From the NCBI GenBank assembly GCA_949287065.1, contig CASEEV010000065.1, positions 1 to 64,000 of the forward strand: DNA of 64,000 bases, in the 5' to 3' direction. A program made the position numbers and the translations under genes. The notes below the pieces were generated by a model. It saw nothing but the letters and a program-made list of their open reading frames with translations, was not told the DNA's origin and ran no database searches. This document shows positions 15,053 through 54,637 of this stretch, piece after piece. How positions within the stretch are numbered: the stretch's first letter is position 1; each line of letters opens with the position of its first letter. Origin of the DNA: an uncultured Collinsella sp. (lineage in GTDB: Bacteria > Actinomycetota > Coriobacteriia > Coriobacteriales > Coriobacteriaceae).

Positions 15053-15096
15053 GAAGGGCGCTACCGTCTCCGGCAGCGCCCTTCCAAAAACGTTTT
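15053..15096. promoter_or_regulatory. Hairpin and AAAACGTTTT palindrome between IIA and GH4
   Basis: Stem GAAGGGCGCT / AGCGCCCTTC (15053-15084) lies just upstream of the GH4 ribosome binding site and may stabilise or process the mRNA. Next to it is the perfect palindrome AAAACGTTTT (15087-15096), the same core as the LacI-type sites upstream of the phosphoketolase gene. Confidence 0.45.
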
Positions 15097-19633: not shown

Positions 19634-19661
19634 CCGTTTACCGGCAGAATTCGACCGTTCA
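19634..19661 (+). promoter_or_regulatory. CCGTTYA direct repeats, 21 bp apart (site 1)
   Basis: CCGTTTA (19634-19640) and CCGTTCA (19655-19661) are exactly 21 bp apart, reading toward the GntR gene. The same pair, spacing and orientation relative to the downstream gene recurs upstream of phosphoketolase, the PTS EIIBC and the isomerase operon. Confidence 0.55.
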
Positions 19662-19807: not shown

Positions 19808-20572
19808 ATGCTGAAGTACGAGTCGATCGCGGCCGACCTGAGCCGCAGCATCGAGGATGGGACCCTTAAGCCAAACGACAAGCTCCCCACCGTCGTGGAG
19901 CTCTGCGACCTGTACGGTGTGAGCAAGATCACCGTCAAGCGCGCCTTTGACCTGCTCACCGAGAAGGGCCTCATCTCGAGCCGCCGCGGCTCGGGCACCT
20001 TCGTCAAGAACACGACCGAGCTCTTCGAGCAGACCGGCATCGAGCCCACCAAGGGCGCCCCGGGCGAGAAGGACAGCTTCTCGTTCTTGCAGTCCGACAA
20101 GGCCGCCGGCTTCACCAAGGAGCACGAGGGCGACGACCGCGCGGTGACCTCCATCGTCTACGACTTCTCGATCGTGAACCCGCCCGAGAACGTAGCGCGG
20201 CATCTTAACATCCACCCCGAGGACTTTGCCTACTACCACTGCCGCGTGCGCTGCCTGGACGACGACCCCATGGTCATCGAGTACACCTACATGCCGATCG
20301 ACCTTATCCCTGGGCTCAAGAAAGCGCAGCTCTACCAGTCGGTGTACGCCTACATCCAGAAGACCCTGGGACTTAAGATCTCGAGCTTCCACCGTATTTT
20401 GCGCGCCGTGCCGGCCACCGAGGAAGAGGCCGAGCGCCTGAACACCAAGCCGGGCGTGCCCATGCTCGAGATCGAGCAGATCGGCTTTTTGGACGACGGC
20501 ACTCCCTTTGAGTACTCGATCTCGCGCTACGAGGGCAGCCGCGGCCAGCTGCGCGACATCAACGTCATCTAG
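19808..20572 (+). CDS. GntR-family (HutC/UTRA) transcriptional regulator
   Basis: A 254-residue regulator. The winged helix lies at residues 1-70 (KLPTVVELCDLYGVSKITVKRAFDLL, then GLISSRRGSGTFV), followed by a UTRA effector domain (HCRVRCLDDDPMVIEYTYMP, and a C-terminal LEIEQIGFLDDGTPFEYSISRYEG). UTRA proteins sense phosphorylated sugars. Divergent from the beta-glucoside operon, so it probably controls it and, through the palindrome at 19731, itself. A GAAAGGAGCTGAGGAG stretch precedes the ATG. Confidence 0.9.
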   Translation: MLKYESIAADLSRSIEDGTLKPNDKLPTVVELCDLYGVSKITVKRAFDLLTEKGLISSRRGSGTFVKNTTELFEQTGIEPTKGAPGEKDSFSFLQSDKAAGFTKEHEGDDRAVTSIVYDFSIVNPPENVARHLNIHPEDFAYYHCRVRCLDDDPMVIEYTYMPIDLIPGLKKAQLYQSVYAYIQKTLGLKISSFHRILRAVPATEEEAERLNTKPGVPMLEIEQIGFLDDGTPFEYSISRYEGSRGQLRDINVI

Positions 20573-38799: not shown

Positions 38800-41352
38800 C
38801 TACTCGTTGTCGCCCGCCGTCATCTGGGTCGCCGAGAGACCTGCCGACGCGTCCGCCTCAGTCGCGGCGCGCGCGTCGGGCCAGACCCAGCCCGTAAAGG
38901 CGGGATGGTCGTAGCCCTCCTCCACGGCAAAGCGGAAGGCCTCCTCGCGGAACGCGTCCCACGCCTCGGCCTGCGCGGCATGCGCAGAGGCACCAGGGCC
39001 GGCGTCCACCAGGCGCAGCGCCTCGGCAGCGAGCGCCCAGCGGTCCATGTTGTTCAGGCGCAGCATGTCAAACGGCGTGGTGGTGGAGCCCTTCTCCTCG
39101 TAGCCGTGCACGCACCACGCGTCGTGGCCGGGGCGCGCCCAAACAAGGCGGCGGATGGTGCCCGCATAGGCGTGGAAGCAGAAGAGCACCGGCTTCTCGC
39201 CTGCGCCGAAGAGCTCGGCAAACCGCTCGTCGGTGAGCGCCTGGTCGTTCTCGCAGGCGTTCTGGATCTTGAGAAGGTCGACCACGTTCACGAACCAGAC
39301 CTTGACACCGTGCTCGCGTAGTAGGTCAACGGCGGCGAGCGCCTCGAGCGTCGGCACGTCGCCGCACGTGCCGATCACGAGATCCGCCTCGGCGAGCGAG
39401 GCGGCCGTGGATGCCCACTCCCAGACCGCCGCGCCCTCCGCAAGCTCGGCCTTTGCCTCGTCGACGCTCACAAACGTCGGCGCGGGCTGCTTGCCGCAGA
39501 AGATGGCGTTCACGCAGTCGGTCGAGGCGTAGGCGCGCTCGGCCACGGCAAGCGCCATGTTGGCGTCGCAGGGGTAATAGGCGTTGACGATGTGCGTGTC
39601 GTTGGCCTTGTTGAGGAGCAGGTCAATGAAGCCCGGGTCCTGATGGCTGAAGCCGTTGTGGTCCTGGCGCCATACGTGGCTCGAGAGCAGGATGTTGAGG
39701 CCGGCGATGGGCTTGCGCCACGGAATCTCGCGCCGGCACGCCTCGAGCCACTTGCAGTGCTGGTTCACCATGGAGTCGACCACGTGCACGAAGCTCTCGT
39801 AGCTCGACCACACGCCGTGGCGGCCGGTGAGCACGTAGCCCTCGAGCAGGCCTTCGCACTGATGCTCGGAGAGCTGCTCGATTACCTTGCCCCGCGGGGC
39901 GAGAAGCTCGTCGTTGGCCTCGTCAGCGTAGGCGTCGCCCGCCTCCCACTGCTTCTTGGTGACCTGATAGGCGTCCTGCAGACGGTTCGAGGCGGTCTCG
40001 TCGGGGCCGAAGATGCGGAAGTTGTCGGGGTTCGCCGCCAGCACGTCGGCCGTGTAGGCTCCGAAGACGCGCGCCGCCTCGGTGGAGCCCCAGCCATGGC
40101 CCTTCTCGGCAACCGGCACCTCGTGGGCATGAATGTCGGACAGCGCAAGGTCCTCGCGCACGCGGCCTCCGTTTGCGTTGGGGTTGGCGCCGATGCGCAG
40201 GTCACCCGCGGGCATCCAGTCCGTGACCTCGGAGCGAACGGCGCCCTCGGGCGAGAAGAGCTCTTCGGGACGGTAGGAGCGCAGCCAGTCGCGCAGCACG
40301 CAGAAGTGCTCCTCGGTGTCGCGGGCGCTCGCCAGCGGCACCTGGTGCGCGCGCCATGAGTCCTCGGTCTTTTTGCCGTCAACGTGCTTGGGGCAGGTCC
40401 AGCCCTTGGGCGTGCGGAACACGATCATCGGGTAGACCGGGCGCGCGACCTCCTTGCCCGCCGCAAGCTGGGCGGCCGCGCGCTCCTTGATGGCGCAGAT
40501 CTTGCCAAAGACCTCTTCGAGAAGCGCTGCGAAGCGCGCGTGGATGGACTCGTGGCTCTCGTCGTCAAAGCCGGCGACGAAGACGTGCGGCTCGTAGCCC
40601 ATGCCCTCGAAGAACTTGGTGAGCTCCTCGTCGGAGATGCGCGCGAGGATGGTTGGGTTGGCGATCTTGTAGCCGTTCAGGTGCAGGATCGGCAGCACGA
40701 TGCCGTCGGTCGCCGGATTCATGAGCTTGTTGGTCTGCCAGCTCGTAGCCAAGGGGCCCGTCTCGGCCTCGCCGTCGCCCACCACGGCAACGGCGAGCAG
40801 GCTCGGGTTGTCGAGCACTGCGCCGTAGGCGTGGGAAAGCGTGTAGCCGAGCTCGCCGCCCTCGTGGATGGAGCCAGGGGTCTCGGGCGCGAAGTGACTG
40901 GGGATGCCGCCCGGGTACGAGAACTGGCGGAAGAACTTCTCGAGCCCTGCCTCGTCGTCGGTGATGTCGGGACGGATCTCGCGGTAGGTGCCGTCGAGCA
41001 GGCTCTGCGCGGTACCGGCCGGGCCGCCGTGACCCGGGCCCATGAGGAAGATGGTGCTCTGGCCATGGTCGGCGATGAGACGGTTCACATGGGCAAACAG
41101 GAAGTTGACGCCGGGCGTGGTGCCCCAATGGCCCACGAGACGGTGCTTGACGTCCTCGCGACCAAAGTCGCGCGGCTCGCCCGTCTTGGCATCCGGGTAG
41201 TCGGCGCGCATCAGCGGATTGGACCGCAGGTAGATCTGGCCGACAGAGAGATAGTTGGACGCGCGCCAGTAGCGCTCGACGCCGGCGAGCCTCTGGTCAG
41301 AAACGGTGCCGTCCCCGCGGTTCCAGGGAGTTCCGATTACCGGATGAGACAT
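38800..41352 (-). CDS. xfp: Xylulose-5-phosphate/fructose-6-phosphate phosphoketolase
   Basis: An 850-residue thiamine-diphosphate enzyme that splits xylulose-5-phosphate (or fructose-6-phosphate) to acetyl-phosphate and glyceraldehyde-3-phosphate (or erythrose-4-phosphate). Seen: [55 protein letters not shown], the TPP motif [16 protein letters not shown] and [18 protein letters not shown]. Length is normal. The promoter carries two LacI-type operators and the CCGTTYA pair, tying it to the sugar locus downstream. Confidence 0.96.
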
Positions 41353-41413
41353 GAGACGCTCCTATTTGCCTTGACGATTGGATACAGTCGTAAGCAGCTT
41401 GCTCGATGGGAAC

Positions 41414-41419
41414 AGTATA
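41414..41419 (-). promoter_or_regulatory. -10 of the xfp promoter
   Basis: TATACT on the minus strand 62 bp upstream of the xfp ATG; no clear -35, as expected for an activator-dependent promoter. Confidence 0.55.
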
Positions 41420-41424
41420 GATGA

Positions 41425-41459
41425 TAAAACGTTTTAGCATTGTTCACAAAACGTTTTTG
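41425..41459. promoter_or_regulatory. Two LacI-type operators upstream of xfp
   Basis: TAAAACGTTTTA (41425-41436), a perfect palindrome in the -10/-35 spacer, and CAAAACGTTTTTG (41447-41459). Their centres are 22 bp apart, two helical turns. They resemble the palindromes at the other promoters of the locus and at the lacI gene. Confidence 0.6.
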
Positions 41460-41494
41460 TTTCTGATTTGGTAAATAGTCGGTAATATAGCCGG

Positions 41495-41522
41495 TGAACG
41501 GTAGCTAAACGGACATGAACGG
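41495..41522 (-). promoter_or_regulatory. CCGTTYA direct repeats (site 2)
   Basis: On the plus strand TGAACGG (41495-41501), TAAACGG (41506-41512) and TGAACGG (41516-41522). The outer pair is 21 bp apart and the middle box is phased at 11 and 10 bp, so all face the same side of the helix. It reads CCGTTYA toward xfp. Confidence 0.6.
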
Positions 41523-41747
41523 TGTTTGCTTCATGCAGGTACGTGAACCTTACCGCAACCCGATCTCCCACCGCGAACCCCGTCTGTGCCCGGCATGCCG
41601 CGCCTCCGGGACCGACCGACAACCTGCCACCCTCCGCAAAGGCAAGGAGCCCCGCCCACAACAAGTGCGGGGCCGCCGGCAAACCCGTACGACCCCGCAA
41701 AAGCGCCCTCCGACGCAGGGGCTCCACCCACATGGTGCGCCAGATTC

Positions 41748-43046
41748 TTACGCCGCAGGCTCCAGCACGATGAGCGCATCGGCGCAGAAGGGATGCTGCG
41801 CCACACGGGTGGCGCCGTCCGCGACCGTGACCGGCAGATGCGCAATGCGCTTCTGGGCCAGGTCGATGGCGCGCGCCGCATACCCCTCAAGCGCCACGTT
41901 GAGCTTGAGCGCCGTCGTGCGCGGCATGTACGCAAGGTACGTCGGCCGCTCCGCCTCGTTGCGCGCAACGCGGATCTGCTCGCGGTCGTCCGCAAGCTCG
42001 TCCTGCGCCGGCACAAGCGTGCGGCACCCGAGCGCATCGAGCAGGGCCTCGATCATGCCGAAGTCCCACACGCCCGGGAGCTGCAGCGCCTCCTGCCAGC
42101 GGAAGGGAGCGTCAAACCCCTCGCCCAAAACCGAGCCCTGGCTCTGCGAGGTCTGCCAGTTCCAGATGCCGTGGGCACCGTAGGTCACACCCGCGGTCGC
42201 GCCGGCGAGGATGCCCGCCCATGCGGACGCGCGGCAGTTCTCGTCGTTAAAGCGAACGTACACGTGGCGGCTCGCGCCCATCATCTCGTAGCAGGGCTCC
42301 GAGTTGAGCATGGGCTTCTTAGGATAGGCGGCGGCGATGTCCTCGGGCAGCTTCCACGCCTCGTCCTGCGCAAGCGCGTTATGGCCGGGCTGGTACATAT
42401 AAAAGTCGAGACGATCAACGAACTGCTCGGGAATGGTGCGGTTCGCACGGTTGATGTGCATGGTGCGCAGGCGCGTGGGCGCAAGCTCGCACACGCACGC
42501 GAGGGCCGCCTCGTAATACGGCAGGCACTCCTCGCTCTTCCAGTCGGTATCGCCCGTCACCACGTACACGGGGTCGAACTCGTCGAGCGCCTCCACGACG
42601 CGGCGCACGTGGCGCTCCACCTCATCGAGCGGCATGGTCGTCGCACCGGTGTGCTCGGCAATGGCAGCGCCCCAGGTGCCGGGCACGTAGTTGCACCACA
42701 TGAGCACGAGCGCCGGCCGGATGCCGTGCTCCACCGCCATGCGGCACATCTCACGCGCGCGCTCCCAGTAGGCGGCGTTGGGCCGGGCCCAGTCAAACAC
42801 GGTGCCGCCCTCGCTCGCGTACGGGTAGATGCCGAGGTCCGGGCGGCAGCGGTCCCATTGCGGCAGCGTGTTGATCTGCAGCGTGTTGACGCCCTGCTCG
42901 GCGCGGCGAGCAAGGTAGTAGTCCCAATCCTCGAGCGTGATGCTCGTAAACGCGCTCCAGCAGGTGTCGGCGAGCCAGAACCACGGCTTGCCGTCGCAGA
43001 GAAAGCCGTCCTTCTGCTCGTTTACGGTGAGCGTCCCCAAAGCCAT
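41748..43046 (-). CDS. DUF4038 (apiosidase-like) glycoside hydrolase
   Basis: A 432-residue TIM-barrel hydrolase without a signal peptide, so cytosolic. The DUF4038 start FLCDGKPWFWLADTCWSAF is clear. Candidate catalytic acids are D in VVTGDTDW and E in MLNSEPCYEMMG, positioned like the GH140 apiosidase pair; GAHGIWNWQ follows. GH140 members release D-apiose from plant rhamnogalacturonan II. ATG at 43046 is chosen over a TTG start; GAGAGGA precedes it. It sits downstream of the PTS gene and beside apiose-type enzymes. Confidence 0.75.
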   Translation of the reverse strand: MALGTLTVNEQKDGFLCDGKPWFWLADTCWSAFTSITLEDWDYYLARRAEQGVNTLQINTLPQWDRCRPDLGIYPYASEGGTVFDWARPNAAYWERAREMCRMAVEHGIRPALVLMWCNYVPGTWGAAIAEHTGATTMPLDEVERHVRRVVEALDEFDPVYVVTGDTDWKSEECLPYYEAALACVCELAPTRLRTMHINRANRTIPEQFVDRLDFYMYQPGHNALAQDEAWKLPEDIAAAYPKKPMLNSEPCYEMMGASRHVYVRFNDENCRASAWAGILAGATAGVTYGAHGIWNWQTSQSQGSVLGEGFDAPFRWQEALQLPGVWDFGMIEALLDALGCRTLVPAQDELADDREQIRVARNEAERPTYLAYMPRTTALKLNVALEGYAARAIDLAQKRIAHLPVTVADGATRVAQHPFCADALIVLEPAA

Positions 43047-43188
43047 AGCGTCCGTCCTCTCTTCTTCCAAGGCGCCTGCGCCCTGTAACGTATGCCTTTA
43101 AGCGCAAGCCGGGCGCGCGGTCAGGACGACCCGCGCTCCCGGAGCTTACCATCTATGCAATGTGCCTCGCACGGAGTGCCTGGGTCGA

Positions 43189-44643
43189 CTACGCGCCGAT
43201 GAGCGCCGACTCGTCCTCGTTCTCCATCTCGGCAAGCTCCTCCTTGGAGAAGCCGATGAAGTAGACCACGATCGCGGCGATCACGAAGGAGATGGCCATG
43301 CCGGCAATCGCCAGAATCGTGTTCATCTGCCCGCCCTGGAGGTAGTTGGTGAACACCAGGAAGTTGGACGCGCCGCCGGCCATGTAGTAGGTGACGCCGA
43401 CGATACCGGAGAACACCGCGCCGATTGCGCCGCCGATGAACATACCGAGCATGGTGCGGCGGAAGCGCATGAGGATGCCGAAGAGCGCGGGCTCGGTCAC
43501 GCCGCCGGCGATGGCGGAAACAACGTAGCCGATGGCAAGACCCTTCTCGTCAGGGTTCTTCATACGGAGGAACGCACCGAAAGCGCAGCCCCACACGGCA
43601 GTCATGGCGCAGTTGGTGGACACGAAGACAAACGGGTCGAAGCCGGCGGCAATGATCTGCACCTGGGCGAGCAGGATGACGGGCATGTGCATGCCGGCGA
43701 CCACGAACAGCTGCCAGAAGGCGCCGAGAATCGCCATGACGATGAAGACCGCGATGCCGCCCATGTCCGCGAGGCCGAAGAGCACGTTGGCGATCACGTT
43801 ACCGATCTCGTTGCCGATCGGCGCGAGGACGATAAACGCAATGGGGATGGTCACGATCATAGTGCAGAACGGCGTGAACACGGTTGAGAGCACGTCGGGC
43901 ATGACCTTCCTGAAGAACTTCTCCACCACGTAGAGCACCGGCACGGACAGGATGATGGGAAGCACCGTCTGCTGGTAGTTGGCCGCAGCGATCTGGATGC
44001 CGTAGACCGAGATGATACCGCTGCCGCCCTCGCCGGCCGCGCTCACCACGGAGGGCGCCATGAGCGCGCCGCCGAGAAGCATGCCGAGTACCGGGCTCGC
44101 GCCGATCTTCTTGGCGGCAGCGTAGCCGAGGTAGATCGGGATAAACGTGAACGTTGCCTCGTAGAGCGTGGTGTAGAGGAACGTGTAAGTGGGGTCGGTG
44201 TCGGACAGCACGCCGGCCATGGTGGGTCCGAGCACCGCCGCGATGGTGCGGAACAGACCGCCGGCCATGAGAAGCGGGATGAGCTGCGTCATGGAGCCGG
44301 AGAGGTAGTCGAGGATGATGCCCGGGATCGCCTTCAGCGTGAGCTTCTCCTTGGGCGCGTCGAGGTTCTCGTCAACCGCGGCGCCGCGCGCAACGCCAGA
44401 GATGGCGATAAACTCGTCGAGCACCTTCGGCACGTTCTGGCCGATGATGACCTGGAGCTGGGTGCCGGAGAACTGAGCGCCGAGCACGCCCTTGACCTTC
44501 TTGATCTTCTCGACGTCCGCAAGGTTGTTGTCCTTGAGCGTGAGGCGAAGGCGCGTCATGCAGTTGGTCGCAGTAGAGACGTTGCCCGCACCTCCCACAA
44601 GCTCGAGAACGCTTTGGGCGATTTGCCTGTTGTCAATTGCCAT
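43189..44643 (-). CDS. PTS EIIBC, sucrose/beta-glucoside class
   Basis: A 484-residue fusion of IIB (residues 1-85) and IIC. The phospho-cysteine is C28 in TATNCMTRLRL; the IIC part has SGSMTQLIPLLMAGGLF, VFVSTNCAMTAVWGCAFGAF and GVTEPALFGI. There is no IIA domain, so a separate IIA(Glc)-like protein is needed. It imports and phosphorylates a glucoside or related sugar. ATG at 44643 follows GGGAGGGG. It is divergent from the esterase gene and leads toward the DUF4038 gene. Confidence 0.9.
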   Translation of the reverse strand: MAIDNRQIAQSVLELVGGAGNVSTATNCMTRLRLTLKDNNLADVEKIKKVKGVLGAQFSGTQLQVIIGQNVPKVLDEFIAISGVARGAAVDENLDAPKEKLTLKAIPGIILDYLSGSMTQLIPLLMAGGLFRTIAAVLGPTMAGVLSDTDPTYTFLYTTLYEATFTFIPIYLGYAAAKKIGASPVLGMLLGGALMAPSVVSAAGEGGSGIISVYGIQIAAANYQQTVLPIILSVPVLYVVEKFFRKVMPDVLSTVFTPFCTMIVTIPIAFIVLAPIGNEIGNVIANVLFGLADMGGIAVFIVMAILGAFWQLFVVAGMHMPVILLAQVQIIAAGFDPFVFVSTNCAMTAVWGCAFGAFLRMKNPDEKGLAIGYVVSAIAGGVTEPALFGILMRFRRTMLGMFIGGAIGAVFSGIVGVTYYMAGGASNFLVFTNYLQGGQMNTILAIAGMAISFVIAAIVVYFIGFSKEELAEMENEDESALIGA

Positions 44644-44703
44644 GGGGTCCCCTCCCATTGCCACGGCCGAGACGCCGTCCTGTACATCTCGGCCTTTCTT
44701 ATC

Positions 44704-44742
44704 AGTAAACCTTGTTTACTGAACGTTTACGTTCTTATAGTA
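44704..44742 (-). promoter_or_regulatory. PTS promoter and operators
   Basis: TACTAT (44737-44742, minus strand) is a candidate -10. Just downstream are GAACGTTTACGTTC (44721-44734) and the 17-bp palindrome AGTAAACCTTGTTTACT (44704-44720), both of the TAAACxxGTTTA type seen at the other promoters. Confidence 0.5.
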
Positions 44743-44776
44743 CTTAGCCATAGCGCAAAAGCTTCCGCACGTCCGG

Positions 44777-44804
44777 TGAACGGTAGGCATTAGCAGGTGA
44801 ACGT
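44777..44804 (-). promoter_or_regulatory. CCGTTYA direct repeats (site 3)
   Basis: Plus strand TGAACGG (44777-44783) and TGAACGT (44798-44804), 21 bp apart, about 40-65 bp upstream of the PTS -10. A weaker CCGTTTA (44915-44921) / ACGCTTA (44936-44942) pair, also 21 bp apart, faces the esterase gene on the other side. Confidence 0.55.
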
Positions 44805-44975
44805 CATGTTTGCGGCATCTCTATAGCGACTTGAAGATGTAAACAGTGCGGTCAATCACTCTCGCAAGCCTGTAGAATATCCGCTCCATATGAATGGTTT
44901 TTTGTATTCATCCGCCGTTTAACAGGCAAAACAGTACGCTTACCGTTCTCCCGCCAAGCGGGGTCTCCAACTAAA

Positions 44976-44993
44976 TATACTAAACATGTTTAG
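44976..44993 (+). promoter_or_regulatory. Esterase promoter with LacI-type operator
   Basis: TATACT (44976-44981) is overlapped by the perfect palindrome CTAAACATGTTTAG (44980-44993), placing a repressor across the -10 and transcription start. Confidence 0.6.
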
Positions 44994-45017
44994 ATACTGT
45001 CTAAAAGGAGAAGTGCT

Positions 45018-46370
45018 ATGAACCCCACAGACCTCACCGCACTCGGCTACAAAACGGTGACCAAGCTCGGAGACTTTGGTCCCTGGATCTCGAAGCTCGT
45101 GCTCGAGCTGCCCGAGGAAATCGGGGTGAACGACGTGAGCCCCGACACGTTCAGCGTCTTCTGCGCGCGCCATGAGCGCACGGGGGCGCTTCTCATGCGT
45201 CGCGAGCGCGGCGCAGACCACGACGCCCCGTCGGTCGGCTACGTTGCCGTGCAGACGGCCTACCCCGCCATCGCCTCGGGAACGCGCGCGGCACGCGGCA
45301 CGCACGTTGCCCTCGAGCTGCCCGAAGTGCGTCTCACCAAGCGCGTCGAGGGCGGCGTCATGGGCTCGCGCCGTATCGAGAACCGCTTTCGCGTAACCCA
45401 GACCGCGGAGATCCCCGGACGCAACCGCCCCCTCGCGGGCATGGTGTTCGCCTCCTGCACGGGCAGCATCTGCCCCGAGCTCAACGGATGGCGCACCGAC
45501 GAGATGAGCGAGGCGGTCGACGGCGTCAGGCTGTCGTACGGCTATTACGAGCCCGATTTTGCACCGGCGCCCGCAACCCCCTTTGGCCCCGCGCGCACAA
45601 AGCCCGAGAAGGCGGCGCTCATCGTCTACCTGCACGGCGCTGGCGAGGGCAAAGGCGAGGGCCTTCAAACCGAAGGGGGGCCGCTCGTGCCCGAGGGCCC
45701 CGAACGCGCCTACACCGGCAACCGCGTGACCGCCCTCTCCCAGGCAAAGATCCAGAGCCACTTTGACGGCGCCGCTTGGGTGCTCGTGCCGCAGTGCCCC
45801 ACCTTCTGGATGGACAACGGTGCCGAGAAGCTCGGACACAGCAACCAGAGCATCTACGTGCGCGCGCTTAAGGCGCTCATCGACGAGTTTGTCGCGGCTC
45901 ACGCCGACCGCATCGACACGTCGCGCATCGTTGTCGGCGGCCTCTCGAACGGCGGCTTCATGACGCTGCGCATGTGCCGCGACTACCCCGGCTTCTTTGC
46001 CGCGGGGCTCCCTTGCTGCGCACCGTGGTACGACGCCACGCCCGAAGACGTTACCGAGCTCGCCAAGACGCCCCTGTGGTTCGTCCACTCCAAAGGCGAC
46101 GAGCTCGTCGACCCCAAAGAGACCGTGCTGCCGCTCTACCGTGCGCTCAAGGACGCCGGAGCGACCGCGCACGTCACCTACTTCGACCACGTTGAGGACC
46201 TGACCGGTGCGTACCGCGAGGCCGACGGGTCGCCCAAAAAGACGTTCAACCACGGCGTGTGGATCCACGTGTTCAACGACTTCTGCCGCACCGACATCGA
46301 CGGCACCAACGTCATGATCGACCGCGAACCCGTAGGCATGTGGGAATGGGCGGCGCGCCAAAGAGCGTAG
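45018..46370 (+). CDS. Alpha/beta-hydrolase, esterase/peptidase-like
   Basis: A 450-residue cytosolic hydrolase. Residues 1-180 form a beta-rich N-terminal domain; then an alpha/beta-hydrolase fold with the oxyanion HG in LIVYLHGAGEG, the nucleophile elbow GGLSNGGFMTLR, an acid in VHSKGDELVDP and histidine in FNHGVWIHV. The closest visual match is the PHB-depolymerase/prolyl-oligopeptidase esterase group. In this locus it may remove acyl groups from imported glycosides. An AAAAGGAG stretch precedes the ATG; divergent from the PTS gene. Confidence 0.8.
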   Translation: MNPTDLTALGYKTVTKLGDFGPWISKLVLELPEEIGVNDVSPDTFSVFCARHERTGALLMRRERGADHDAPSVGYVAVQTAYPAIASGTRAARGTHVALELPEVRLTKRVEGGVMGSRRIENRFRVTQTAEIPGRNRPLAGMVFASCTGSICPELNGWRTDEMSEAVDGVRLSYGYYEPDFAPAPATPFGPARTKPEKAALIVYLHGAGEGKGEGLQTEGGPLVPEGPERAYTGNRVTALSQAKIQSHFDGAAWVLVPQCPTFWMDNGAEKLGHSNQSIYVRALKALIDEFVAAHADRIDTSRIVVGGLSNGGFMTLRMCRDYPGFFAAGLPCCAPWYDATPEDVTELAKTPLWFVHSKGDELVDPKETVLPLYRALKDAGATAHVTYFDHVEDLTGAYREADGSPKKTFNHGVWIHVFNDFCRTDIDGTNVMIDREPVGMWEWAARQRA

Positions 46371-46417
46371 CGAGCACCCCGCCGGCGAGAATCTCAAACC
46401 AGGAAGGAAGCTCTTTC

Positions 46418-47938
46418 ATGAGTGCAGACAAGCTGCCGCGCGTGATGGTGACCACCGACCTCGAGGTGGACGACATGAACTCGCTCATCCATCTCGCGCT
46501 CTACCTTAACCTGCTCGATGTCGAGGCCATCGTCACGACAGCCTCGCAGTACCACTTCCTCGGAGACGGAAGCCACACCCTCGGCGAGGTCACGCCGCAC
46601 TGGCGCACCAAAGGCGTTCGCTCCTACACCTGGGAGAAGGTCCCGCACGAGCCCGACCCCAACGCCGGGTCGCTCGCAAGCTACCGCCCCTTCCCGCGCA
46701 CCTGGGCGCAAGACCTCTGGGCCAACGAATACGCCGACGCATGGCCCCATCTCTGCGAGAACGCAACGGCAGCAGGCGAGCCGCCCTTCCCCACCCCCGC
46801 CGAGATGCTCGGGCGGACGTACGAGGGCAACGTTGCCTTTGAGGGAGACGTGCGCGAAGACACCGCCGGGTCCAACGTCATCAAGAGCGCCATTCTCGAC
46901 GACGACCCCCGCACGCTCTGGCTTCTCTCTTGGGGCGGCATGAACACCATCGTCCGCGCCCTCATGTCCATTGCCGAGGACTATCGGAACACCGACGCGT
47001 GGGACGAGGTCCGCAGCCGCGTTTACACCAAGGTCCGCGTGCTCGGCGTCACCAACGGCGTCGGGCAGGACAACTCGTGGCTCGACCACGGCGAGCCCCT
47101 CTTTCCCGACCTCGTCTTCCTGCGCGCGCCCTTCATGTACGGCGGCTACGTAGACGCCGTTGCCGCGCAGCCCGACAGCATCGAGCTCTTCCGCGCGCCC
47201 TGGCCCGAGGAGAACCTCGCGCACGGCAACGGCCCCCTCATGGCGCGCTACATGCTCTACGGAGACGGCAAGGTGTACGAGAACGAGCCCGAGCGCTTTC
47301 AGTTCGGACGGCATGCGACCCTCGACTGGGGCCTTGACGGCATGGAGCCCATCCGCTTCACGCCCGGCGACTTTATGGCCGAGGGCGACTCGATGACCTA
47401 TATCCCGCTCATCCCCTTCGGCCTGCGCGGTGCCGAGGAGAAGGGCTTCTCAACGGTGCTCGGCCCCCTGTTCCGCGACCGCATCGAGGGCAAAGGCGAC
47501 GGCATGAGCTTCGCCGACTTAGGGCACGCTGCGACCGAGAACCCCAACCCGTATCTCCGCGCCTACCAAGAGGACTTTGCCGCCCGTGCGCAATGGTGCG
47601 CCCATGGTCCCTCAGTTTGCAACCATGCCCCCATCGTCGAAGGCGTCACCCCCGACACGTCCGCCCTGCCCGGAGCGACCGTTGAGGTCGGCGCCTGGGT
47701 ATCCGACCCCGACGGCGACATGCTCTCCTGCTGCTGGACGGTCGACGTGCTCTCGAGCTCCTATCATGGGACTCAGGATCTAGACGCATGGTGTGCAGAA
47801 GAAACGAGAGCCCGCTTTGCCGTGCCCGACGACGCCGCCCCCGACGACCGCATCGTCCTTGTGCTTCGCGTCCGCGACATGACCGAGCGACCCTGCACGC
47901 GCTACGCCCAGGCTGCCATCACCATCGCGACGGCATAG
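46418..47938 (+). CDS. DUF1593 nucleoside-hydrolase-like protein
   Basis: A 506-residue protein. The N-terminal part resembles inosine-uridine nucleoside hydrolases (VMVTTDLEVDDMNSLIHL, with the aspartate cluster DLEVDD), and the C-terminus is an Ig-like domain (GATVEVGAWVSDPDGDML). This is the DUF1593 arrangement, often annotated cellulose-binding or Sde182-like; GNGPLMARYML and AEGDSMTYIPLIPFGL fit. Some relatives are secreted glycan-acting proteins, but no signal peptide is seen here. Co-directional with the esterase 48 bp upstream, so likely one operon. AGGAAGGAAG precedes the ATG. Confidence 0.75.
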   Translation: MSADKLPRVMVTTDLEVDDMNSLIHLALYLNLLDVEAIVTTASQYHFLGDGSHTLGEVTPHWRTKGVRSYTWEKVPHEPDPNAGSLASYRPFPRTWAQDLWANEYADAWPHLCENATAAGEPPFPTPAEMLGRTYEGNVAFEGDVREDTAGSNVIKSAILDDDPRTLWLLSWGGMNTIVRALMSIAEDYRNTDAWDEVRSRVYTKVRVLGVTNGVGQDNSWLDHGEPLFPDLVFLRAPFMYGGYVDAVAAQPDSIELFRAPWPEENLAHGNGPLMARYMLYGDGKVYENEPERFQFGRHATLDWGLDGMEPIRFTPGDFMAEGDSMTYIPLIPFGLRGAEEKGFSTVLGPLFRDRIEGKGDGMSFADLGHAATENPNPYLRAYQEDFAARAQWCAHGPSVCNHAPIVEGVTPDTSALPGATVEVGAWVSDPDGDMLSCCWTVDVLSSSYHGTQDLDAWCAEETRARFAVPDDAAPDDRIVLVLRVRDMTERPCTRYAQAAITIATA

Positions 47939-47961
47939 CCAACAACCGCAGCCCTAACAAG

Positions 47962-48008
47962 AAGAGGGGCGCGGAACGCCTACGCGAGCGTTCTGCGCCC
48001 CTCGTCTT
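47962..48008 (+). terminator. Terminator after the DUF1593 gene
   Basis: A 16-bp stem GAGGGGCGCGGAACGC / GCGTTCTGCGCCCCTC with one mismatch, followed by GTCTTC. The following 200 bp to the kinase 3' end show no gene. Confidence 0.7.
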
Positions 48009-48221
48009 CATCGACTGTGACAAGTAGGATGATCTCCTTCGGCAATCTCGTCTGGTGCGCATTACTGAAGAACCTCGAGCGTAATCCGTATTGCCCTGGA
48101 ACGAAGTCGAGCGAAAAGGGCAAGAAGGATGTCCCTTGGCGCATATCCTGCAAGTGCACAGCACCGAGGACATTCGCCAGAGGACACCCTCCCAGAATCC
48201 ATGCCTGGAAGAATCTGTTTC

Positions 48222-49712
48222 CTACCCTGCGAAGGCTATGGCCGCCTTGACGGCGCGGCGCCAGCCCTTGAGACGGGCGGTGCGGTCGCCTTCGAGCATC
48301 TTGGCGTCCCAGCTTGCACGGGGCGCCACGCGCCTCGCCACGTCCTCGGGGTAGAGGCCGAGCGCGATGCCGGCGCACCATGCCGCGCCGAGGCCGCTCA
48401 TCTCGTCGTTGCCCGCAGCCACGATGGGCACGCGCAGCATGTCGGCCACAAACTGCATAAGATAGGCGTCACGCGTAGGGCCGCCGTCGACCCGCAGCTC
48501 GGCCAAACTCACGCCGGAGTCGCGCTGCATGGCGTCGACCACGTCGAAGATCTGGAACGCGATCGATTCCACCGTGGCGCGCACGAACTCGGCACGCCCC
48601 GTGGTGCGCGTCATGCCGAAGACCGCGCCGCGCGTCTCGGCGTGCCAATGCGGGGCACCTAAGCCCGTGAACGCGGGCACCAGGTACACGCGGCTCGCGG
48701 GATTCGCCTCGAAGCAAAGATCGGTCGTCTCGGCGGGGCCCTCGATCATCTCCATGTCGTCGCGCAGCCAGGTCTTGACCGCGCCCGCGTAGTTGATGTT
48801 GCCCTCGAGCACGTACACGGTCTCGCCGTGGCGGCGCCAGCCGAGCGAACTCGAAAGGCCCGTGGTCGAACGTGTAAGCTCGCCTCCGACGTTCATCATC
48901 GCGCTCGAGCCCGTGCCCATGGTGGCCTTCGCCTGACCGGACGCGTAGCAGCCCTGGCCGAAGAGCGCCGCATGGGAATCGCCCATAACGCCGTGGACGG
49001 GCACCGGCGCGGGCAAAAAGCCGTCGAGGTCGGTCATGCCGAAACAGGCGTCCGAATCGGTCACCTCGGGCAGCCACGCGGGGTCGATGCCGAAAAGTCG
49101 GCAGCAGCGCGTCGACCACTTGAGCTTCTCGATATCAAAAAGCTGCGTACGGCTCGCGTTGGAGTAATCGCAACGGAATTCCGCCCCGTGCGTGAGCGTC
49201 CAGACCACCCAAGCGTCGATGGTGCCCAGACGCAGCGCACCTTCGCGCGCGAGCTCGCGCGCCGCGGGAACGTTCTCCAGGATCCACGTCATCTTGGCAG
49301 CGGGGTAATAGGGCGAAAGGGCAAGCCCCGTGCGCTCGCAGATAATGTCCGCCGCCCCCTCGCGCTGCGCGATGCGGTCGCACACCTCCTGCGCTCGGGC
49401 GCAATGCCACACGATGGCGTCGCAAACAGGCTCGCCGGTGCGCACGTCCCATGCCACCGTGGTCTCGCGCTGGTTGGAAATGCCGATGCCCACGATCTCA
49501 GCGGGATCGACGCCCTGCTCTTCAACCACGCCACGCGCGACCGTAAGCACGTTGCGCGCGATCTCGGCGGGATCGTGGCTCACCCAGCCGTCTTCGTTGA
49601 CCTTCTGCTCGTGGCTGCGGTCGGCGCGGTGCACGAGGCGCCCCGTCTCATCCACCAGCAGGGCCTTGGTGCCCTGCGTCGACTGGTCGATACCTATGAT
49701 GTAGCGGCCCAT
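48222..49712 (-). CDS. FGGY-family sugar kinase, glycerol-kinase-like
   Basis: A 496-residue carbohydrate kinase. The N-terminal phosphate-binding IIGIDQSTQGTKALLVDETG, GIGISNQRETTVAWD, VHGVMGDSHAALFGQGCY, FTGLGAPHWHAETRGAVFG and LRVDGGPTRDAYLMQFVADM are FGGY signatures, nearest by eye to glycerol kinase. In this operon (isomerase, split transketolase, kinase) the likely substrate is a ketose such as D-apulose; dihydroxyacetone or glycerol are alternatives. AAGGAGAG precedes the ATG. Confidence 0.85.
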   Translation of the reverse strand: MGRYIIGIDQSTQGTKALLVDETGRLVHRADRSHEQKVNEDGWVSHDPAEIARNVLTVARGVVEEQGVDPAEIVGIGISNQRETTVAWDVRTGEPVCDAIVWHCARAQEVCDRIAQREGAADIICERTGLALSPYYPAAKMTWILENVPAARELAREGALRLGTIDAWVVWTLTHGAEFRCDYSNASRTQLFDIEKLKWSTRCCRLFGIDPAWLPEVTDSDACFGMTDLDGFLPAPVPVHGVMGDSHAALFGQGCYASGQAKATMGTGSSAMMNVGGELTRSTTGLSSSLGWRRHGETVYVLEGNINYAGAVKTWLRDDMEMIEGPAETTDLCFEANPASRVYLVPAFTGLGAPHWHAETRGAVFGMTRTTGRAEFVRATVESIAFQIFDVVDAMQRDSGVSLAELRVDGGPTRDAYLMQFVADMLRVPIVAAGNDEMSGLGAAWCAGIALGLYPEDVARRVAPRASWDAKMLEGDRTARLKGWRRAVKAAIAFAG

Positions 49713-49723
49713 GCCTTCTCTCC

Positions 49724-50668
49724 TTAACCGCGCGCCAGCGTTTCGCGGGCCGCCTTGGCAATACCCGCGGCATCGAGCCCGTAGTGGGCAAAAACCTCCG
49801 GAGAAGTGCCCGTTACAACGGGCGCGTCCGGCAACGACAGGCACGTAAGCGGACGCGGGCAACGGGCGCCCAGCACCTGGGCGACCATGGAGCCAAGACC
49901 ACCGGTAGGCGCCGCTTCCTCGACCGTTACCACGGCGCGTGCGCCCTGGGCAGCGCGCACGACGGCGTCCGCATCGAGCGGCTTCACACAGTACATGTCG
50001 AGAACAGCTGCCTCGATGCCCTCGGCAGCGAGCGTCTCTGCCGCGTCGAGTGCGGGGCGCACCATCTCGCCGCAAGCGATGAGGGCAACATCCGAGCCCT
50101 CGCGCAGCCACGTAGCGCGGTCCATCTCGAAGGGGCAGCTGTCTGCCGCGTACACGTCGGCCACGGCGTTGCGGCCCACGCGGATATAGGCGCACTGCTC
50201 GTCAGCCATAAGAGCACGGGCGAGCTTCTCGGTCTGCCACTCGTCCGAGGGAAGGTAGACGCGCATGCCGGAAATCGCGGCCATGGCGGCGATGTCCTGC
50301 GCGGAATGGTGGCTCATGCCGAGCGCGCCGTAGGAAACGCCGCCCGAGATGCCGAGCAGCTTGACGTTGGTGCGCGAATAGGCGCAATCGACCTTGGTCT
50401 GCTCGTAGCTGCGCGTGGTAAGGAAGCACGCCGGCGACGCGACCCACGGCTTCTTGCCGCAGGCAGCAAGACCCGCGGCCATACCGACTGCGTTCTGCTC
50501 GGCAATGCCCGCCTCCACGGCCTGTTCGGGATAGGTGTCAAAAAACGGCGTCATCGACGCGGACCCGCGGGAGTCGGAGCAAACGACCACCACGTCGCGG
50601 TCGCCGGCCTCGGCGGCCTCCATGAGGACCTCGCAGATGACCTGCTTGTTCGCCTTTGTCTTAGCCAT
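49724..50668 (-). CDS. Transketolase C-terminal subunit
   Basis: A 314-residue half-transketolase: the pyrimidine-binding domain (DVVVVCSDSRGSASMTPFF, GIAEQNAVGMAAGLA with the catalytic glutamate) and the C-terminal domain (GSDVALIACGEMVRPAL). It pairs with the N-terminal subunit three bases upstream. Split transketolases of this type include the apulose-4-phosphate transketolase AptA/AptB; here that identity is inferred from context. Eleven bases separate it from the kinase. Confidence 0.88.
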   Translation of the reverse strand: MAKTKANKQVICEVLMEAAEAGDRDVVVVCSDSRGSASMTPFFDTYPEQAVEAGIAEQNAVGMAAGLAACGKKPWVASPACFLTTRSYEQTKVDCAYSRTNVKLLGISGGVSYGALGMSHHSAQDIAAMAAISGMRVYLPSDEWQTEKLARALMADEQCAYIRVGRNAVADVYAADSCPFEMDRATWLREGSDVALIACGEMVRPALDAAETLAAEGIEAAVLDMYCVKPLDADAVVRAAQGARAVVTVEEAAPTGGLGSMVAQVLGARCPRPLTCLSLPDAPVVTGTSPEVFAHYGLDAAGIAKAARETLARG

Positions 50669-50671
50669 CGC

Positions 50672-51646
50672 TTAGTCCTCCTTGGAAGCGGGGTTTACCG
50701 GACGGTCAGCTGCGGGAGCCGGCGCCGCAGCACCGGCACGGCCGGCAAGCGCGGCAACGGGGGCGGTGGCGCCGGCGCGCTCGACCGCAAAGTCGAGCTC
50801 GGGCACAAAGGCCTCGCCTGCCGCTGCGGCCTCGGCATGCGCCGTAAGGTCCGCCGTGATCTGGGCGTACTCCTCGTCGTTGGGCAGATGATGGTGCCAG
50901 CCCGCCTTGTTCTCCATAACAGGCGAGCCCAGGCCCTTCACCGTGTCCATGATGATCGCGGTGGGGCGGCTCTTTGTGGCAGCGGCCTCGGCAAAGGCGG
51001 CCTCGAGCGCAGCGAGGTCGTTGCCGTTCACGCACACGGTGTGCCACCCAAAGGCGGCCCAGCGCTCCTCTTGGCTATCGGCGTGCATGACGTCCTCGGT
51101 GTTGCCAGAGATCTGCAGGTGGTTGCGGTCGATCACGGCGCAGAGGTTGTCGAGGCCGTAGGTCGCGCCCGCCATGGCGGCCTCCCAGATGGAGCCCTCG
51201 GCGAGCTCGCCGTCGCCCATGACCACGTAGGTACGGTACGCGCGGCCGTCCATCTTGGCGGCAAGCGCCATGCCCACGCCTACGGGAAGCCCGTGTCCGA
51301 GCGAGCCCGAGTTCATCTCGATGCCGGGCAGCTTGTTGTTGGGGTGGCCGATGTAGGGGCTCCTGAACTTGGAGAAGCGCGCCTTCACGTCGGCGAGGTC
51401 GAGGTACCCGTAGTGGCAGAGCACCGCGTAGTACGCCTCCATGGCGTGCCCCTTGGAGAGCAGGAAACGGTCGCGATCGGGGTCCTCGAGCTTGTCGGGT
51501 CCCACGTTCATGATCTTGCCGTAGAGCAGCATGAGCGCGTCGGTCACACTCATGTCGCCGCCGATGTGCCCGCCGCCGCCCGCGACGATGATGTCGACGG
51601 CGTCTTGGCGCAGCTGCCAGCGCAGCTGCTCGAAGTTTTCAGTCAT
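50672..51646 (-). CDS. Transketolase N-terminal subunit
   Basis: A 324-residue TPP-binding half. Seen: GGGGHIGGDMSVTDALMLLY, FLLSKGHAMEAYYAVL, GSLGHGLPVGVGMALAAK and the TPP motif VMGDGELAEGSIWEAAMAG followed by NLCAVIDRNHLQISG. The last 50 residues are Ala/Pro-rich. Together with the next gene it transfers a ketol unit; predicted donor is apulose-4-phosphate. Stop is followed four bases later by the C-subunit ATG. Confidence 0.9.
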   Translation of the reverse strand: MTENFEQLRWQLRQDAVDIIVAGGGGHIGGDMSVTDALMLLYGKIMNVGPDKLEDPDRDRFLLSKGHAMEAYYAVLCHYGYLDLADVKARFSKFRSPYIGHPNNKLPGIEMNSGSLGHGLPVGVGMALAAKMDGRAYRTYVVMGDGELAEGSIWEAAMAGATYGLDNLCAVIDRNHLQISGNTEDVMHADSQEERWAAFGWHTVCVNGNDLAALEAAFAEAAATKSRPTAIIMDTVKGLGSPVMENKAGWHHHLPNDEEYAQITADLTAHAEAAAAGEAFVPELDFAVERAGATAPVAALAGRAGAAAPAPAADRPVNPASKED

Positions 51647-51655
51647 AACTCTCTC

Positions 51656-53056
51656 CTACTCGCCGCGGAGGTACGCGCGGACGTCCTCCTCGATGGGGTC
51701 GTACAGATCAGGCGCGATGCCCAGGTACTTGCAGGCCTCGTAGAGCACCGGCACCACGTTGGCGTGAATCGCCACGCAGTGGTGGATGTAGGGCCCCTCG
51801 ACGATCTTCGCCTCGAGGCGCTTGAGGTTCTCGACCTCGACCCACAGATAGGTGCCCATGCCCTTGGGGCCGTCGATGCCGCGCGCGTTGCCCAGAAGCA
51901 GCGAGTACTCGCCGTTGTCGCCGTCGAAGCGCGCGAGCGTGAGGTCGCCGTGCTTGGCCTCGGCGGTGAGGGCGCCGGGGTGGTCGAACGCGAGAGGATA
52001 GGTGAGGCGCGGCTTCTCGCAGGCCACCGAGCACGGCCAGGGACCGCAGTGCTGCAAAAGCTCGCCGTTCTCGTTGTCGGGGTGGCGCACGGTCCAGTCG
52101 GCGAACATGCCGTGATGACGGCCGAGGTCGGCCGCCTCCACCATGAGCGCGGTGATGGCGCCGTGGATGTCGGTCTCGCATACAACGGGGATGCCCATCT
52201 CGTTCAGGATCGCGTTTGCCGCGCACGGCATGATACCGAGCTCTGCCTGAAGCGCGTTCCAGCACTGGATGGCGCCGGCGTTGCAGCCGTACTTGTCGAT
52301 AAGCGTCTTCATGCCGTTGGCGAGCGCCGCCACCGACTTCGTCTGCTCGTCGGTGATCTCGCTCACGAAGTGCTCCGCGATGTAGGCGAGGGTCTCGGCC
52401 ATGCCCTCCTCGTCGGCGCGGGCGTCGCGCACCGCCTGCATGAGCTCGGTCATGGGGATGGGCGACAGCTGGATGTTGAACTTCTCGAGCAGCTCGCCCT
52501 CGTTGCACATGGTGGACCAGAAGTCGAAGGGGCGCGTGGACATCTGCAGGATGCGCGTGTGGCGGAACACCTTCACCACGTTGCACACCGCGAGGAAGTC
52601 CCACACGCCGCGCTCGAACTCAGGGTCGGTGAGGCGGCAGTTGGTCATGTAGGTAAACGGCACCTGGAAGCGGCGCAGCACCTTGCCCGTGGCGAAGAGG
52701 CCGCACTGCGAGTCGCGCAGGCGGGTGCCGTCAGGCTCAGGGCGCTCGTCGCGCGGACCCCACAGAAGCACGGGCTTGCCGAGCTCGCGCGCCAGGCGGG
52801 CGCACAGGTACTCGGTGCCAAAGTTCGCATGCATGAGCATGATGCCGTCGACGCCCTCGGCGCGGAACTTGTCCAAGATGGGCTGCACATGGCTGTCGTC
52901 GAAGAGCAGCCCCTCGTCGTTGATATCGTCGATGTCGACAAAATCGACGCCCAGCTCGCGCAGGCGGTCGGCGGTGAGCCCGCGGTACTTGATTGCGTCG
53001 GGAGCGCTGAAGATGCTGCGGCGGGTGGGAACGAAGCCGAGCTTGACCCTGTCCAT
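51656..53056 (-). CDS. L-fucose/L-arabinose isomerase-fold sugar isomerase
   Basis: A 466-residue protein of the FucI/AraA fold. Seen: an N-terminal Rossmann part (HANFGTEYLCARLARELGKP, LLWGPRDERPEPDGTRLRDS) and the metal site CETDIHGAITALM, matching E-x-D of fucose isomerases. It is first in the operon isomerase-transketolase N-transketolase C-kinase, so it should make the ketose for the kinase: apiose to apulose is the best guess. The characterised apiose isomerases may belong to another fold, so this is tentative. GAGAGGAAG precedes the ATG. Confidence 0.8.
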   Translation of the reverse strand: MDRVKLGFVPTRRSIFSAPDAIKYRGLTADRLRELGVDFVDIDDINDEGLLFDDSHVQPILDKFRAEGVDGIMLMHANFGTEYLCARLARELGKPVLLWGPRDERPEPDGTRLRDSQCGLFATGKVLRRFQVPFTYMTNCRLTDPEFERGVWDFLAVCNVVKVFRHTRILQMSTRPFDFWSTMCNEGELLEKFNIQLSPIPMTELMQAVRDARADEEGMAETLAYIAEHFVSEITDEQTKSVAALANGMKTLIDKYGCNAGAIQCWNALQAELGIMPCAANAILNEMGIPVVCETDIHGAITALMVEAADLGRHHGMFADWTVRHPDNENGELLQHCGPWPCSVACEKPRLTYPLAFDHPGALTAEAKHGDLTLARFDGDNGEYSLLLGNARGIDGPKGMGTYLWVEVENLKRLEAKIVEGPYIHHCVAIHANVVPVLYEACKYLGIAPDLYDPIEEDVRAYLRGE

Positions 53057-53090
53057 AAAAACTTCCTCTCTCGCAGAGGCATACACCTCG

Positions 53091-53174
53091 CAAACGTTTA
53101 CTAAATGTTTTACACTTTTGTTCAATTATTTGTTTGCTCTATACCGTAAACGGTGGTGTAAAGACGGTAAACGG
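53091..53174 (-). promoter_or_regulatory. Regulatory region of the isomerase operon (operator and CCGTTYA site 4)
   Basis: CAAACGTTTAC (53091-53101), with a LacI-type AAACGTTT core, lies in the leader. TAAACGG at 53147-53153 and 53168-53174 is exactly 21 bp apart and reads CCGTTTA toward the isomerase. A TATAGA near 53140 could be the -10. Confidence 0.55.
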
Positions 53175-53276
53175 CACTAAACAATTTGTCCCCGTGGCGC
53201 TATCACACCACGGGGACAAATGAGAAGTATGTCATGGGACAAAGCGGCTCATATAAAGCGCCTTTCTCGGCCCCTT

Positions 53277-53401
53277 GCCAAAAAGCGCTGTTAACAGCGT
53301 TTTTTGTCCACCCTCTCCTACCTGCGCATACATGTAGAGGCCGCAGGTGGGATGGGGTGTTTTGCCTCTGCCAAAAAACGCCGATAACAGCGGATTTTGA
53401 C
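53277..53401. repeat. Double-palindrome element, copy C
   Basis: First palindrome GCC...GCGCTGTTAACAGCG...TTTTTTGTC (53277-53308), second GCC...CGCCGATAACAGCGG...TTTTGAC (53370-53401), and a perfect ACCTGCG/CGCAGGT stem between them. It lies downstream of lacI, before the isomerase promoter. Confidence 0.8.
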
Positions 53402-53456
53402 ACGTCCTGCGGCAGCACGGAGCGGGGAACGGGAGGCGGATAACGAGGCGGGCGTC

Positions 53457-54470
53457 CTAACCGAGCGTCCTTACGCTCTGGCGTTCGACGAAGTACGTGT
53501 TCAGCTGCGTTTTGCACGTATAGTTCTTCGGCGCCTCGATGTTGCCCAGCAAACGGCGCACCGCGACCTCCCCCACCTCGTGCTTGAGCACGTGCACCGT
53601 CGTGAGCGGCGGGTTGGAAAACGCGCCGAGCGCAAGATCGTCGAACCCGACGATCGACACGTCTTCAGGCACGCGCAAGCCGTGCTCGGCGAGCGCGCGC
53701 ATGGCGCCCACCGCGATAAGGTCGTTGTCTGCAAAGAACGCCGTGGGCAGCTCCGGCCGATCGGGCGCGTCGAGCCAGGCATTCATGTCCTCGTAGGCGC
53801 CTTCGAGCGTGGTGCGCAGGGGCACGCGCCACGCAGGCTCGCGCACGAGCCCCGCGTCATCGAGAGCGGCGCGCATGCCGTTCTCGCGCCCGCGGAAGTT
53901 CTTGATCCTAAACTCGCCCGCCAGGTACCCGATCTCGCGGTGCCCGTGGTCGATGAGGTAGCTCACCGCCTGGTAGGCGGAATCGTTGTTGGCGATAACC
54001 ACGCTGTCGAAGGCGTACCGGTTGCTCCAGCTGTCGAGCACCATAAGATGCGCAGGGCAGTTTTGGAACAGGGCGAAGTCCTCCTCGTCGAGCTCGGTGG
54101 CGAGCAGCACCACCGCGGCCGAAGGCGACGAGACGAGCGCCTCGACCTGAGGACGCACCGCCTCCCGATCCGAGAAGTCGAAGCTCACGAACGTGGTGCC
54201 CATGTTGGAGCGCCGCGCCTGACGCTCCACTCCCTCGATAACCGAAGGGTGGAACGTGTTGTCGTCGATGATCTTGCCGTTCTTGCGCGCGAGCACAAAC
54301 GCGATGGTATCGAGCTGCGACGGCTGCTGGTAGCCGATAGACTTGGCCGCGTCGAGGATGATCTTTGCCGTCTGCTCGCTCACGCTGCGCTTGCGGTTGA
54401 GCGCGTTGGAGACGGTTGCCGGGGAGAATCCGGTGATACGGCTTATCTCGCGTACGCTTGCTTTTGCCAT
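53457..54470 (-). CDS. LacI-family transcriptional regulator
   Basis: A 337-residue repressor. The helix-turn-helix at the N-terminus is SVREISRITGFSPATVSNAL, with a hinge region; the effector domain shows VIEGVERQARRSNM, YLIDHGHREIGYLAG and the C-terminal MRALAEHGLRVPEDVSIVGFDD. It presumably senses an intermediate of the locus and binds TAAACxxGTTTA palindromes found at five promoters here, including its own. GGGAGCC precedes the ATG. Confidence 0.92.
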   Translation of the reverse strand: MAKASVREISRITGFSPATVSNALNRKRSVSEQTAKIILDAAKSIGYQQPSQLDTIAFVLARKNGKIIDDNTFHPSVIEGVERQARRSNMGTTFVSFDFSDREAVRPQVEALVSSPSAAVVLLATELDEEDFALFQNCPAHLMVLDSWSNRYAFDSVVIANNDSAYQAVSYLIDHGHREIGYLAGEFRIKNFRGRENGMRAALDDAGLVREPAWRVPLRTTLEGAYEDMNAWLDAPDRPELPTAFFADNDLIAVGAMRALAEHGLRVPEDVSIVGFDDLALGAFSNPPLTTVHVLKHEVGEVAVRRLLGNIEAPKNYTCKTQLNTYFVERQSVRTLG

Positions 54471-54480
54471 AACAGGCTCC

Positions 54481-54514
54481 CTAAACAGCTGATAAATATT
54501 TTTCCCATGTTTAG
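54481..54514 (-). promoter_or_regulatory. Half-operators in the lacI promoter
   Basis: CTAAACA (54481-54487) and TGTTTAG (54508-54514) are inverted halves of the same palindrome type, flanking the leader just after a TATAAC -10 candidate (54515-54520). Suggests autoregulation. Confidence 0.5.
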
Positions 54515-54600
54515 TTATACCACGCATGCGAGCATTGCAACGCGCCCACCGCAAACGCCGCCCCACCAACCGCGTGTGCAAACGTCCATGCGCGGGGAGC

Positions 54601-54637
54601 AAAAACAGAAAAAGGCCGGCTCGCGGGGAGCCGGCCT
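54601..54637 (-). terminator. Terminator of the liv operon
   Basis: Perfect 10-bp stem AGGCCGGCTC / GAGCCGGCCT (54613-54637), and on the minus strand a T-rich tail TTTTTCTGTTTTT. It ends livF transcription. Confidence 0.9.

Follow-up and report, generated by a model that had tools for sequence, protein, structure and literature searches.

The phosphoketolase gene (xfp) of this Coriobacteriaceae genome is probably (at a rough probability of 0.7) controlled by operators for XfpR, a LacI-family regulator other than that of the neighboring sugar locus, and by a general CCGTTYA nutrient element, with the local LacI acting at the sugar promoters only and with the locus and the xfp promoter acquired as a block from which the XfpR gene was lost. 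The name XfpR is used here for a distinct LacI that is typically encoded immediately 5' of xfp, in the same orientation. The window, the whole 64,000-nucleotide stretch that was analyzed, comprises positions 1–64000 of contig C65 of the genome (G000; 2.08 Mb, 97 contigs; listed contamination 0.37%). Collinsella and other Coriobacteriales are common fermenting bacteria of the gut, with a phosphoketolase closest to the bifidobacterial one, and no regulator of the Coriobacteriales phosphoketolase was found in the literature searched. The conserved lacI–xfp pair and its clear operator offer a regulator of acetate-yielding metabolism that can be tested directly, and the locus would be a case of a sugar locus moving along with a central enzyme's promoter.

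The window xfp (38800–41352, minus strand) encodes an 850-aa phosphoketolase that carries all three Pfam domains (XFP_N, XFP, and XFP_C), matches the NCBIfam phosphoketolase model, and has relatives in Collinsella and Olsenella. The sugar locus includes an apiosidase-like glycoside hydrolase (PF13204; 41748–43070, minus strand; Pfam), a PTS EIIBC of the beta-glucoside/sucrose type (43189–44664, minus strand; Pfam and NCBIfam), a putative esterase/hydrolase (45018–46370, plus strand; weak NCBIfam esterase matches), an FGGY sugar kinase (48222–49715, minus strand; GlpK-like by NCBIfam), the C-terminal (49724–50668) and N-terminal (50672–51646) subunits of a split transketolase (both minus strand; Pfam), and a sugar isomerase (51656–53056, minus strand; Fucose_iso_C, with a sulfoquinovose isomerase match below threshold). 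The local LacI-family regulator of this locus (53457–54470, minus strand) has the recognition helix FSPATVSNALN and is without the ARSL hinge signature; a deleted hinge is less likely, as the PDB alignment displays a substitution and not a clear gap. The interval separating the local LacI gene from the promoter of the isomerase operon holds a pair of imperfect inverted repeats that resemble each other (aaaagcgctgttaacagcgtttt and aaaaacgccgataacagcggatttt; window 53280–53400).

As had been predicted originally, two LacI-type palindromes are present upstream of xfp, with centers at 41430.5 and 41452.5, 22 bp apart. Both possess a AAAACGTTTT core (41426–41435 and 41448–41457), and they are predicted to represent a proximal XfpR-type LacI operator, TAAAACGTTTTA (41425–41436; matrix score 30.6), and a distal operator, CAAAACGTTTTTG (41447–41459; matrix score 17.4), 22 bp upstream of the proximal site. 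A putative xfp -10 box, TATACT (41414–41419, minus strand), lies 6 bp downstream of the proximal operator and, based on a comparison of xfp upstream regions, is kept in most of the Collinsella and Olsenella relatives. Among ~60 xfp upstream sequences, AAAACGTTTT beside TATACT is conserved in Collinsella, Olsenella, and other Atopobiaceae, usually as a pair (21–22 bp) in most Collinsella and as a single site in Olsenella. A ATTTACTAAAT-like stretch near 41470 in the relatives was taken as chance; L008–L012 do not conserve it. Genome-wide operator scans, which combined a pattern search with selected sequence stretches, recovered three exact copies of AAAACGTTTT in the whole 2.08-Mb genome, two of them at xfp. 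Within the window, four sites with ≤1 mismatch were observed compared to 0.40 expected, with none across 41.5–64 kb, and the best score of the xfp-type operator matrix across 41760–54600 was 13.2, compared to 30.6 and 17.4 at xfp. The third exact genomic copy occurs at window 15087–15096 and has a low operator-matrix score (14.6).

The presence of this operator follows XfpR. In most operator-bearing Collinsella and Olsenella loci the XfpR gene is immediately upstream of xfp on the same strand, and an operator was detected ≤400 bp from xfp in 40 of the 45 genomes with XfpR and in none of the nine without it (Fisher p = 3.8e-7), while the same 400-bp test applied to the local LacI returned 26 of 30 genomes with the regulator and 12 of 19 without (p = 0.08), though both p-values overstate independence because the genomes are related. 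Such an operator occurred in 7 of 2019 random 400-bp pieces. An XfpR homologue with the same DNA-binding residues is encoded in this genome on contig C21 (C21:13121–14125), not adjacent to xfp, and its DNA-binding domain is 66–89% identical to those of the xfp-adjacent XfpRs, including the VLNN recognition helix and the NQIARSL hinge. It is the sole protein with an XfpR DNA-binding domain amongst the four LacIs of the genome. Collectively, the owner of AAAACGTTTT at xfp is probably XfpR and not the LacI of the apiose locus. The AAAACGTTTT pair, positioned over and just upstream of the -10 box, would then be the XfpR operator, its two sites probably cooperating on one face of the DNA, and XfpR, in this genome acting in trans from contig C21, would block xfp transcription until released by an effector from central metabolism.

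The association is not without exceptions. XfpR adjoins xfp in L033 and L061, yet these loci have no recognizable operator, and the genome to which L013 belongs (G053) possesses a 98% identical XfpR but an xfp promoter without an operator; the retention of XfpR in these three cases implies that it must have other targets or that the operator can be lost. With regard to autoregulation, no operator was found upstream of xfpR in the scored loci, except for a weak one in L017. It is unlikely that another LacI of this genome, from contig C12 or C27, owns the AAAACGTTTT sites as a CcpA-like global regulator: the genome does encode four LacI proteins, and at least the one from C27 has a canonical RSL hinge, but homologues of the latter are patchy among the operator-keeping genomes, and the three LacIs other than the C21 homologue, those from C12 and C27 included, share only 31–42% of the DNA-binding domain with the xfp-adjacent XfpRs. 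The protein encoded by the C27 gene (C27:1222–2265; L004) is 99–100% identical in the genomes of three other species, suggesting a very recent transfer.

In Collinsella (L008–L010 and L012) the gene order is PTS, apiosidase, XfpR, operators, and xfp, and the window has this same order minus the XfpR between the apiosidase and xfp. An unrelated 0.2-kb stretch (41531–41758) is in place of the XfpR (lacI) gene of the Collinsella relatives, and no XfpR remnant was found within it. A block spanning 41292–54607, including the xfp promoter and the first ~60 nt of xfp, is absent from the closest relative, L013, a member of the same genus with flanking proteins 97–98% similar. The flanking genes abut in L013, thus 41292–54607 is extra in the window; in L013, xfp comes directly after the terminator of a BCAA-transporter and is under another promoter. 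The window xfp is a mosaic in which the first ~120 nt are L008-like and the 3' two thirds are L013-like. Counting against the overall reading, the C21 XfpR is only 72% identical to the Collinsella XfpR, whereas xfp is 92% identical. The simplest reading seems to be that recombination into xfp introduced the locus from a donor resembling Collinsella, with the direction of transfer being what we infer; the sugar locus and the xfp promoter would have arrived as a block and the XfpR gene would have been lost from it. Alternatively, loss of the block in L013 is possible.

A chimera of metagenome assembly where the sugar locus meets xfp, which would render the XfpR loss and the insertion artefacts while leaving the operator and box findings unaffected, is improbable. 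The junction at 54608 is placed precisely behind a terminator, without any sequence in common, no known donor is identical to the block (80–95%), GC is uniform across it, and the listed contamination is 0.37%, though the assembly is in 97 contigs, the xfp 5' end combines L008-like and L013-like sequence, and the same junction was not found in any second genome. Beyond the window, xfp adjoins the apiosidase–PTS genes in the Collinsella relatives, and in two Olsenella MAGs (L060 and L073), where the contig ends within xfp, it is followed directly, in a different layout, by a divergent LacI and an operon for the isomerase, split transketolase, and kinase. The placement of xfp beside sugar genes in both groups, together with the common CCGTTYA element, points to a functional link.

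The sugar-locus promoters carry a different conserved LacI-like operator, TAAACATTYAGTAAAC / TAAACATGTTTA (TATACTAAACATGTTTA). Deduced operators of the local LacI are TAAACGTTCAGTAAAC at the PTS promoter (44714–44729, minus strand; conserved footprint and scan), TAAACATGTTTA at 44981–44992 (invariant in eight aligned loci), and AAAACATTTAGTAAAC at the isomerase-operon promoter (53096–53111, minus strand; alignment and scan), and a scan for TAAACATTYAGTAAAC / TATACTAAACATGTTTA sites found them nowhere else in the window and none at its xfp promoter. The local LacI is the natural candidate for these TAAACATTYAGTAAAC-type sites, on which, rather than on xfp, it would act. Its DNA-binding domain is 31% shared with that of XfpR and the recognition-helix residues differ; nothing on LacI recognition codes was found in the literature searched. 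It is very unlikely that the local LacI binds the xfp palindromes, making xfp a direct member of its regulon. In favor of this reading, the block carries both the regulator and the xfp promoter, CG-centered palindromes are frequent targets of LacI-family regulators, and some Olsenella loci have a local LacI relative (~51% identical) near xfp with a TTTAGTAAAC site upstream. Against it, the conserved operators of the local LacI differ and are missing from the window xfp promoter, its recognition helix and hinge differ from those of XfpR, 12 genomes that lack it nonetheless have the xfp operator, and in L040 and L053 it is present while both XfpR and the xfp operator are absent. Upstream of xfp, some Olsenella and C. 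aerofaciens loci do contain sites similar to the operator of the local LacI. Further, relatives of the local LacI (~50% identical) are encoded a few kb or less from xfp in L034, L036, L039–L041, L049, L051, L054, and L065, and, as those Atopobiaceae are without the sugar operon, the family to which the local LacI belongs may serve a different function close to xfp.

The three CCGTTYA boxes expected upstream of xfp were also confirmed, on the minus strand at 41495, 41506, and 41516 (together 41495–41522), the outer two forming a direct repeat with a 21-bp period (9-bp box, 12-bp spacer) that is kept in six relatives (L008–L012 and L014). Alignment and pattern search located a CCGTTYA direct repeat at the PTS promoter (44777–44804, minus strand), a weaker CCGTTYA-type direct repeat at the hydrolase promoter (44915–44942, plus strand), and a CCGTTTA direct repeat with a 21-bp period at the isomerase-operon promoter (53147–53174, minus strand), and these box pairs are kept in Collinsella relatives; in alignments with up to nine relatives the 21-bp-period repeats are conserved at the isomerase-operon and the divergent PTS/hydrolase promoters. 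The original prediction that both element types recur at the apiose-like promoters therefore holds for the CCGTTYA repeat, conserved at three promoters, and fails for the AAAACGTTTT palindrome, the other operator being found there. With ≤2 mismatches, CCGTTYA-N14-CCGTTYA was observed eight times in the window compared to 0.86 expected, and exact matches number four in the whole genome, two of which are those of xfp and the isomerase operon. Because both elements are rare genome-wide (three exact AAAACGTTTT and four exact CCGTTYA-N14-CCGTTYA), the palindromes and boxes at xfp are not attributable to chance. An exact CCGTTTA/CCGTTCA direct repeat is also present at window 19634–19661, upstream of a GntR-family gene at 19808.

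The CCGTTYA repeat extends to the promoters of a mannitol-type PTS, a sucrose-type PTS, a lactose PTS IIA, and a mannose PTS, and further to those of a xanthine permease, a diaminopropionate ammonia-lyase, and a GntR gene, with these gene names read from translations without a family search. Its occurrence at PTS and permease promoters across the genome indicates a general nutrient element, and a private sugar-locus regulon built on CCGTTYA is ruled out by this genome-wide distribution. Of the proposed membership of xfp in the sugar-locus regulon, what survives is a loose co-regulation through the general CCGTTYA element, while control by the apiose-locus LacI is most unlikely on the operator, helix, and distribution evidence. 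In architecture, the xfp repeat matches the sites of LytTR-domain regulators (AgrA, AlgR, and HdrR), 9-bp direct repeats with a 12-bp spacer, and the AlgR boxes CCGTTCGTC and CCGTTCATC resemble CCGTTCACC/CCGTTCATG here (PMC6193735, PMC4064291). LytTR repeats lie ~10 bp upstream of the -35, however, and the xfp boxes ~50 bp upstream of the inferred -35. One LytTR protein, an atypical one, is encoded in this genome, and at least one in each of the 50 genomes examined. Direct repeats with 21-bp spacing are also used by AraC-type activators. The CCGTTYA repeat, most like the LytTR 9-12-9 sites, would loosely co-regulate xfp with the sugar locus.

A metabolic basis for this link had been proposed in the form of a closed catalytic loop. 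The D-apiose pathway runs through apulose-4-phosphate transketolase, which converts apulose-4-phosphate and glyceraldehyde-3-phosphate (GAP) to xylulose-5-phosphate and DHAP. The locus is similar in combining an apiosidase-like hydrolase, an isomerase, an FGGY kinase, and a split transketolase, but it differs in that the kinase is GlpK-like and the isomerase is nearest to sulfoquinovose isomerase (sub-threshold). No Pfam or NCBIfam model names apiose or apulose as a substrate for the locus enzymes, and nothing on apulose was found in the literature searched. Should the split transketolase act as an apulose-4-phosphate transketolase, the GAP loop would plausibly be closed stoichiometrically, with phosphoketolase returning the GAP. 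Phosphoketolase also has general roles, xylulose-5-phosphate has other outlets, and a second split transketolase, of the housekeeping type, is present in this genome. Xylulose-5-phosphate is the phosphoketolase substrate, and the Coriobacteriales enzymes, which are the nearest relatives of the bifidobacterial XFPK, have signatures of the X5P/F6P-active bifidobacterial form (PMC5315409).

XfpR-type sites are found beyond xfp. All four genus members possess one 192–196 bp upstream of pyk (L208:9651, L209, L210, and L211), with scores of 17.7–26.8, and this conserved site suggests a role for XfpR as a central-carbon regulator. Additionally, a site with a modest score (18.5) is present 132 bp upstream of the housekeeping-type split transketolase (tkt) in G000; 1.3% of random 450-bp pieces score ≥17, in a background set that includes known sites, which makes this single tkt site weak. 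A functional likeness exists to AraQ and MalR1, LacI-type regulators of the bifid shunt in bifidobacteria that control central carbon genes of the phosphoketolase pathway, pyk among their targets (PMC6882875). XfpR, unlike AraQ, is usually encoded beside xfp, and the AraQ operator, CAGTGTGAGC/GCTCACAACA (pyk) with the motif TGTGAGC/GCTCACA (PMC6882875), differs from the AAAACGTTTT sites at xfp, which do not match the AraQ-type motif. More tentatively, and at somewhat less than even odds, XfpR may be an undescribed Coriobacteriales central-carbon regulator, AraQ-like with the operator AAAACGTTTT, that controls xfp, pyk, and perhaps tkt, in which case the acquired Collinsella sugar locus would have brought operators to xfp and rewired phosphoketolase into an existing XfpR network. 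All four genus genomes also possess a second, divergent phosphoketolase (C91:5384–7864 in L208; 55% identical protein), with pyk ~2 kb further.
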